A stretch of 64,000 bases of DNA. Source: Clostridia bacterium. Lineage in GTDB: Bacteria > Bacillota > Clostridia > Monoglobales > Monoglobaceae. The DNA lies in the NCBI GenBank assembly GCA_017546205.1, contig JAFYXJ010000010.1, forward strand, positions 1 to 64,000, in the 5' to 3' direction. Position 1 is the first letter of the stretch, and every line of letters starts with the position of its first letter. Made by a program: the position numbers and the translations under genes. The notes beneath the pieces are model-generated. The model was not told the DNA's origin. It did no database searches and was given only the letters and a program-made list of their open reading frames with translations. Below are positions 11,097 through 27,060 of this stretch, piece after piece.

Positions 11097-11477
11097 TTCT
11101 CCTTTGTTTGGTTTTATTTTATTTTGACACAAAAGGAAGGTCACGACGTGCCATGTTATATTCATTTCTTTCACTCGATGCAAACGAATATCACTGACTA
11201 AAGGGCAATATCACTTGTTCCGCAAGGAAGAAATATAGCTGAAAAAAGACATCCGAAGATGTCCTTTTCATGGAAGTACGATATAATTTTACTGTTAATA
11301 AAAGAAAGTTATAATGATGCATCGCCACAGGCGATATGATGTGATGCTTCGCATAATGATGTTGCTCGTTTCACTCGCAATGATGAGATGTTTGCCAAAT
11401 GTGTCGCAAGGCACACATCATTAGCTTCGGCGTCATCATTAGTGAAACGACATCATTTGCCGCAGGCAAACATCATT
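11097..11477. other. gene-free region with hairpins
   Basis: No convincing gene is present. A GACATC-cgaa-GATGTC hairpin with flanking A and T runs is at 11244-11269. The stretch 11312-11477 is a run of small palindromic modules listed separately. The rest is AT-rich and contains the minus-strand upstream region of the hypothetical gene. Confidence 0.6.
11312..11477. repeat. array of hairpin modules spaced by ATGATG / CATCATT
   Basis: On the plus strand four ATGATG boxes are followed by four CATCATT boxes, and each gap holds a short palindrome or half-palindrome: ATCGCC-aca-GGCGAT, ATGC-ttc-GCAT, TTGCTCGTTTCACTCGCAA, ATGTGT-cgcaaggc-ACACAT, AGCTTCGGCGT, AGTGAAACGA and TTGCC-gca-GGCAA. Some left and right modules are complementary at 10 of 10 bases (TCGTTTCACT with AGTGAAACGA; GATGTTTGCC with GGCAAACATC). 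There is no coding capacity. It differs from CRISPR because neither repeats nor spacers have a constant length. Confidence 0.7.
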
Positions 11478-26845: not shown

Positions 26846-26871
26846 GGTAAGTACCTCCTGAAAAAGGGCAT

Positions 26872-26898
26872 AAAAAAACCCTGCATAGTTCAGCAGAG
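26872..26898 (-). terminator. leader terminator of trpB2
   Basis: CTCTGC pairs with GCAGGG (one U-G) around an 8-base loop, followed by seven U, 27 bases before the trpB2 ATG. Confidence 0.65.
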
Positions 26899-26928
26899 AA
26901 AAATAGCATAGTTATAGTATATCCTCAT
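26890..26928 (-). CDS. possible leader peptide MRIYYNYAIFLC
   Basis: A 12-codon ORF in the trpB2 leader encodes MRIYYNYAIFLC, with three Tyr and one Phe codons. Its stop overlaps the 5' arm of the terminator hairpin, the right place for ribosome-coupled attenuation. There is no Trp codon, and only a weak AAGATGAG precedes the ATG, so this is uncertain. Confidence 0.3.
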   Translation of the reverse strand: MRIYYNYAIFLC

Positions 26929-26967
26929 CTCATCTTAACACAAACTCATCTCATCTCTGCTACAATC

Positions 26968-26996
26968 AGTATATCTTATTCTGAGAATTTTGTCAA
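26968..26996 (-). promoter_or_regulatory. sigma-A promoter of trpB2
   Basis: On the minus strand TTGACA and TATACT are exactly 17 bp apart. The start would be near 26961. A second, weaker set (TTGTGT-16-TATACT) lies downstream at 26916-26943. Confidence 0.8.
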
Positions 26997-27031
26997 TCCT
27001 GAATTTTCTTGAAAAAATTTTAAAAATTGTG

Positions 27032-27060
27032 TTGACAAAGGATGTTTGCTGTGCTATACT
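27032..27060 (+). promoter_or_regulatory. sigma-A promoter of rplU-rpmA
   Basis: TTGACA and TATACT are 17 bp apart. Confidence 0.85.

Follow-up and report, generated by a model that had tools for sequence, protein, structure and literature searches.

Within the window, the whole stretch of 64,000 nucleotides that was analyzed, the solo gene trpB2 lies on the minus strand and is separated from rplU by the leader that is the subject of this analysis. By its profile scores the product is of the TrpB2 type (TIGR01415, trpB_rel); the model for canonical trpB, TIGR00263, gives 165.5 bits, which is under the cut-off of 392.45. Of the four genomes sampled from the genus, two yielded TrpB2, and one genome of the genus (G002, 99% complete) additionally carries a solo trpB of canonical type that has a T-box. 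No match to trpA or trpC was obtained in any of the four genomes, G002 among them; with the window genome at 74% completeness, its own lack of the two genes is not certain. High affinity for indole has been described for TrpB2 enzymes (PMC11917138), and work cited in PMC11085991 reports that such a paralogue salvages indole. Since trpA and trpC were not found in the genus, TrpB2 is probably an indole-salvage enzyme.

The features of the leader are collected in Table 1. The transcript is predicted, from the position of the promoter, to start near 26961. Read from there, the leader consists of UAGcaGAGauGAGauGAG, a gap of 8 nt, AAGauGAGauGAG, a spacer, the terminator hairpin with its seven U, the Shine-Dalgarno sequence, and trpB2. 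The first UAG straddles the predicted start, and full transcription of that triplet is uncertain. The leader is confirmed as it had been observed in the preliminary description. The UAG and GAG triplets spaced two bases apart, given there as six and interrupted, are all present together with one AAG, and the array comprises six (G/U)AG and one AAG with an interruption of 8 nt. The 21-base repeat is AGATGAGATGAG. The 5′ segment that had been proposed to pair with CTCTGCT can do so in an antiterminator helix of 9 bp, one end pair of which is U-G, and the CTCTGC/GCAGGG hairpin followed by seven U is located ahead of trpB2 as described. The sequence CUCUGC is common to the 9-bp antiterminator and the 6-bp terminator, as seen in both the sequence and the fold. 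The promoter had been called perfect; its elements are present, but at 11 of 12 consensus positions it is near-perfect only.

Table 1. Positions of the trpB2 leader features and of other RNA and promoter elements in the window
Feature	Positions	Strand	Basis or remark
trpB2, TrpB-like PLP enzyme, TIGR01415, 456 aa	25475..26845	minus	595.3 bits, cut-off 518.85
Shine-Dalgarno AGGAGG of trpB2	26854..26859	minus	sequence
Intrinsic terminator, CUCUGC/GCAGGG stem, 8-nt loop, seven U	26872..26898	minus	z −2.73
Terminator arms and T7	CTCTGC 26898-26893; GCAGGG 26884-26879; T7 26878-26872	minus	
Antiterminator 3′ arm UCUCUGCUG	26891..26899	minus	helix comparison, fold; overlaps terminator 5′ arm
Antiterminator 5′ arm UAGCAGAGA	26954..26962	minus	helix comparison, fold; overlaps first two triplets
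TRAP-site-like array: UAG, three GAG, 8-nt gap, AAG, two GAG; 2-nt spacers	26924..26962	minus	
Triplets before gap	UAG 26962-26960; GAG 26957-26955; GAG 26952-26950; GAG 26947-26945	minus	
Triplets after gap	AAG 26936-26934; GAG 26931-26929; GAG 26926-26924	minus	
Promoter of trpB2, TTGACA-17-TATACT	26968..26996	minus	consensus scan, 11/12 positions
−35 and −10 elements, spacer 17	TTGACA 26996-26991; TATACT 26973-26968	minus	
Near-consensus promoter of rplU	27032-27060	plus	divergent, back to back with trpB2 promoter
Ribosomal protein L21 leader RF00559	27059-27132	plus	distinct from trpB2 leader
Gut-1 RNA (RF01706) match	11163-11241	minus	52.5 bits, just over gathering score 50

The leader is very likely a transcription attenuator of the solo trpB2 that depends on TRAP (MtrB). 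When tryptophan is scarce, TRAP would be unloaded and the 5′ end UAGCAGAGA would pair with UCUCUGCUG. This pairing would prevent the terminator from forming, trpB2 would be transcribed, and indole would be converted to tryptophan. When tryptophan is plentiful, tryptophan-loaded TRAP would wrap the (G/U)AG array including the 5′ arm of the antiterminator; the CUCUGC/GCAGGG-U7 hairpin would then form, and transcription would end before trpB2. Attenuation is the likely mode because the terminator is located well upstream of the Shine-Dalgarno sequence. At trpB2, we infer TRAP binding, the tryptophan response, the direction of control, and the indole-salvage role.

The arrangement resembles the trpEDCFBA leader of Bacillus subtilis, in which (G/U)AG triplets also overlap an antiterminator that excludes a terminator and in which TRAP binding favors termination (PMC4027176). 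The two differ in the target, which is the trp operon in B. subtilis and a solo trpB2 here, and in the number of triplets, which is 11 in B. subtilis and seven, interrupted, here. The antiterminator uses the first triplets here and the last ones in the trpEDCFBA leader. Unlike B. subtilis, the host belongs to a Clostridia-like class and is probably unable to make indole.

A search for mtrB, suggested in the preliminary description, identified the gene in the window genome (PF02081, E = 8.6e-35). The encoded MtrB of 75 aa matches solved TRAP structures with an E value of about 1e-26. When its positions were matched by eye to the numbering of B. subtilis TRAP, the segments HHTEKLDKGE and AIKVRG appeared to conserve the RNA-contact residues Glu36, Lys37, Lys56, and Arg58. 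These residues of TRAP are reported to be in contact with RNA (PMC4027176). The MtrB of another genome (G058, L179:4760-4987) has IKIHG instead of the usual IKVRG, which places a histidine at the RNA-contact position Arg58; the trpB2 leader of that genome retains TRAP-like triplets despite this histidine. The triplets of TRAP sites are mostly separated by 2–3 nt. Stable TRAP binding has been reported for RNAs with seven or more repeats, and with about seven repeats exposed the addition of TRAP raised termination from 16% to 84% in vitro (PMC4027176). The window leader may thus represent the lower repeat limit for TRAP, which may bind it less strongly than the leader of the sister species (G002).

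In the sister species, eight perfect triplets, TAGcaGAGatGAGttGAGatTAGatTAGatGAGatGAG, are followed by a like terminator in the same architecture. Attenuator-type leaders also precede trpB2 in G277, G058, G046, G257, G410, and G422. The same three-element layout is retained before trpB2 where TrpB2 is only 60–82% identical. The preliminary description had made its reading depend on conservation of the pairings in related leaders, and a helix of 7–10 bp between the triplet region and the 5′ arm of the terminator is present in nine of the ten leaders that were compared one by one. In the remaining leader, that of G257 (L188), an array is accompanied by a strong terminator, and no antiterminator of more than 4 bp was found. 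Relative to mononucleotide shuffles, the helix has p < 0.06 in eight of the ten leaders, the values for G410 and G257 being 0.12 and 0.95. The antiterminator sequences differ in G410 (UUAGAACAG/UUGUUCUGG) and G422 (AGCUGAGAC/GUCUCGGUU), which argues that the pairing itself is conserved. The leader of G410 (L184) apparently contains two separate triplet arrays ahead of a single terminator. The helices were compared leader by leader because the 5′ arms of G044 and G047 were wrongly placed when seven leaders were aligned with MAFFT. No two-sided covariation was seen in the core antiterminator helix in these individual comparisons; in the closest group covariation is uninformative because the helix bases double as TRAP triplets.

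The distribution of arrays across the class was compared with that of mtrB. In genomes with mtrB, 29 of 58 trpB2 records have an array in the leader, compared with one of 31 genomes without detected mtrB (Fisher 3e-6, a value overstated by thresholds set post hoc, by related genomes, and by two records from G106). An array was called in a trpB2 leader at a score of at least 3.6 and a shuffle p < 0.02, thresholds that were set after a first look. The trpB2-leader arrays come from 14 families. In an independent comparison, exact arrays of six triplets were present in 27 of 89 genomes with mtrB and in 9 of 302 genomes without it (p = 2e-12). Many of those in mtrB-positive genomes precede trpE, trpG, trpP, trpB, or trpB2, with the trpB and trpE-operon assignments made partly by eye, and this position before trp genes supports the pattern as a TRAP signature. 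Inspection by eye showed that most matches in mtrB-negative genomes are simple tandem repeats, and these were set aside; one array in such a genome (G199, 61% complete) precedes a trpE-like gene.

Arrays were also observed before other genes. At three loci in genomes of one order (L254, L255, and L256, in G045, G049, and G042, respectively), the gene for a TrpX-like substrate-binding protein of an ABC transporter (PF04392) is preceded by a TRAP-like array of six triplets, by a terminator, and by another short array located at the ribosome site; mtrB was found in two of these three genomes. In four genomes of one family (G014, G026, G011, and G017), all with mtrB and with no trpA or trpC found, the leaders of a solo canonical-type trpB (L025, L026, L027, and L028) contain TRAP-like arrays and terminators. 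At L275 (G046, contig C7), the gene for a TrpP-like transporter has a five-triplet array about 106 nt upstream; the TrpP-like call was made by eye, and the first 110 aa have no Pfam match.

These data bear on the identity of the regulator. A tryptophan-responsive RNA-binding regulator that closes the antiterminator, as originally proposed, is supported by mtrB, by the array and pairing in relatives, and by the class-wide tracking of mtrB. The accompanying reservation that so few repeats could indicate a different regulator finds no support, since seven repeats suffice in vitro (PMC4027176) and the sister species has eight perfect ones. It is unlikely that an RNA-binding protein other than TRAP reads the GAG repeats and makes the same choice between antiterminator and terminator. 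The low count and interruption of the window array would fit such a protein, as would the array of G422 (74% complete), the sole array-bearing genome among the 31 without detected mtrB; against it stand mtrB in the window genome, the eight perfect triplets of the sister species, and arrays that track mtrB throughout the class and mark the known TRAP targets trpE, trpG, and trpP.

The possibility of coincidence was evaluated with a simple triplet-chain score. The leader array scores 5.6. When the 153-nt leader was shuffled 5000 times with its dinucleotides preserved, no shuffle reached this value, and among 2548 overlapping 300-nt windows on both strands of the 64 kb it is the highest, the next score being 3.2. 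The genome contains a single run of four KAGNN, and the reversed control likewise gives one; the significance of the array therefore rests on its position and its conservation in relatives, not on that run. The fold energy of the antiterminator is −15.8, with a moderate z of −1.55 versus shuffles, and the terminator, at −8.5, is stabler than its shuffles. The leader as a whole is no stabler than shuffles (z −0.31), and the stability of the folds alone is not remarkable. A constitutive partial terminator, with triplets and pairings that merely reflect a purine-rich 5′ end, would be consistent with the ordinary stability of the whole leader and with the reversed control, but is rendered quite improbable by the shuffles and by the layout kept before divergent trpB2 genes.

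A T-box occurs at trpB2 in 8 of the 58 mtrB-positive records and in 20 of the 31 genomes without detected mtrB (Fisher 2e-6, overstated for the same reasons as above), and Rfam confirms it in four loci. Like the leader described here, the T-box leader (RF00230) of other Clostridia trpB2 genes is terminator-based; most of the relatives without detected mtrB have it. It senses uncharged tRNA, whereas free tryptophan would be sensed through a protein here. No leader among the trpB2 records examined has both an array and a T-box. Common as the T-box is before trpB2 elsewhere, it is most improbable that the window leader is a T-box or a riboswitch that responds to tRNA-Trp or to a metabolite. The leader lacks the T-box core motif, has a length of about 90 nt, which is little for a T-box, and has no match to RF00230 or any other Rfam family; these candidates were rejected.

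With TRAP as the preferred regulator, the leaders across the class suggest three modes of control at trpB2: an attenuator, a hairpin that covers the ribosome site, and triplets that overlap this site directly. In B. subtilis, TRAP controls trpE translation through a hairpin over the Shine-Dalgarno sequence and blocks the ribosome sites of trpG, trpP, and ycbK directly (PMC11255114). The trpB2 leaders of G044 and G047, in which the competing hairpin takes in the Shine-Dalgarno sequence, resemble that of trpE. In families f9, f12, f18, f26, f33, f42, f44, f58, and f78, the triplets extend into the ribosome site of trpB2 and its start codon, as in trpG, trpP, and ycbK; among these short arrays, some contain the Shine-Dalgarno sequence itself, and taken one by one these are weak.

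Most work on TRAP, a textbook regulator, has been done in Bacillus. The presence of mtrB in 89 of the 391 sampled genomes of the class indicates that it is not confined to that genus. Nothing direct on TRAP in Clostridia or at trpB2 was found in the open-access literature that was searched. The mechanism is already known; relative to that literature, trpB2 as a target and the exchange of control modes there appear to be new. In the window genome, TrpB2 would turn scavenged indole into tryptophan, and free tryptophan would switch trpB2 off through TRAP. For the class, the evidence is evenly poised on a broader proposal: that tryptophan-auxotrophic Clostridia-like bacteria kept TRAP to control indole salvage, that the targets left to it are mainly solo trpB2 or solo trpB and tryptophan transporters, and that the T-box was exchanged for three TRAP modes at trpB2. 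If TRAP does control trpB2, the classic Bacillus mechanism would extend to a probable indole-recycling gene, and trpB2 would receive a physiological assignment as a gene that is off when free tryptophan is plentiful. One gene under either a T-box or three TRAP modes would provide a natural series for regulator replacement, and the retention by auxotrophs of a biosynthesis regulator to manage scavenged indole would become a testable idea.
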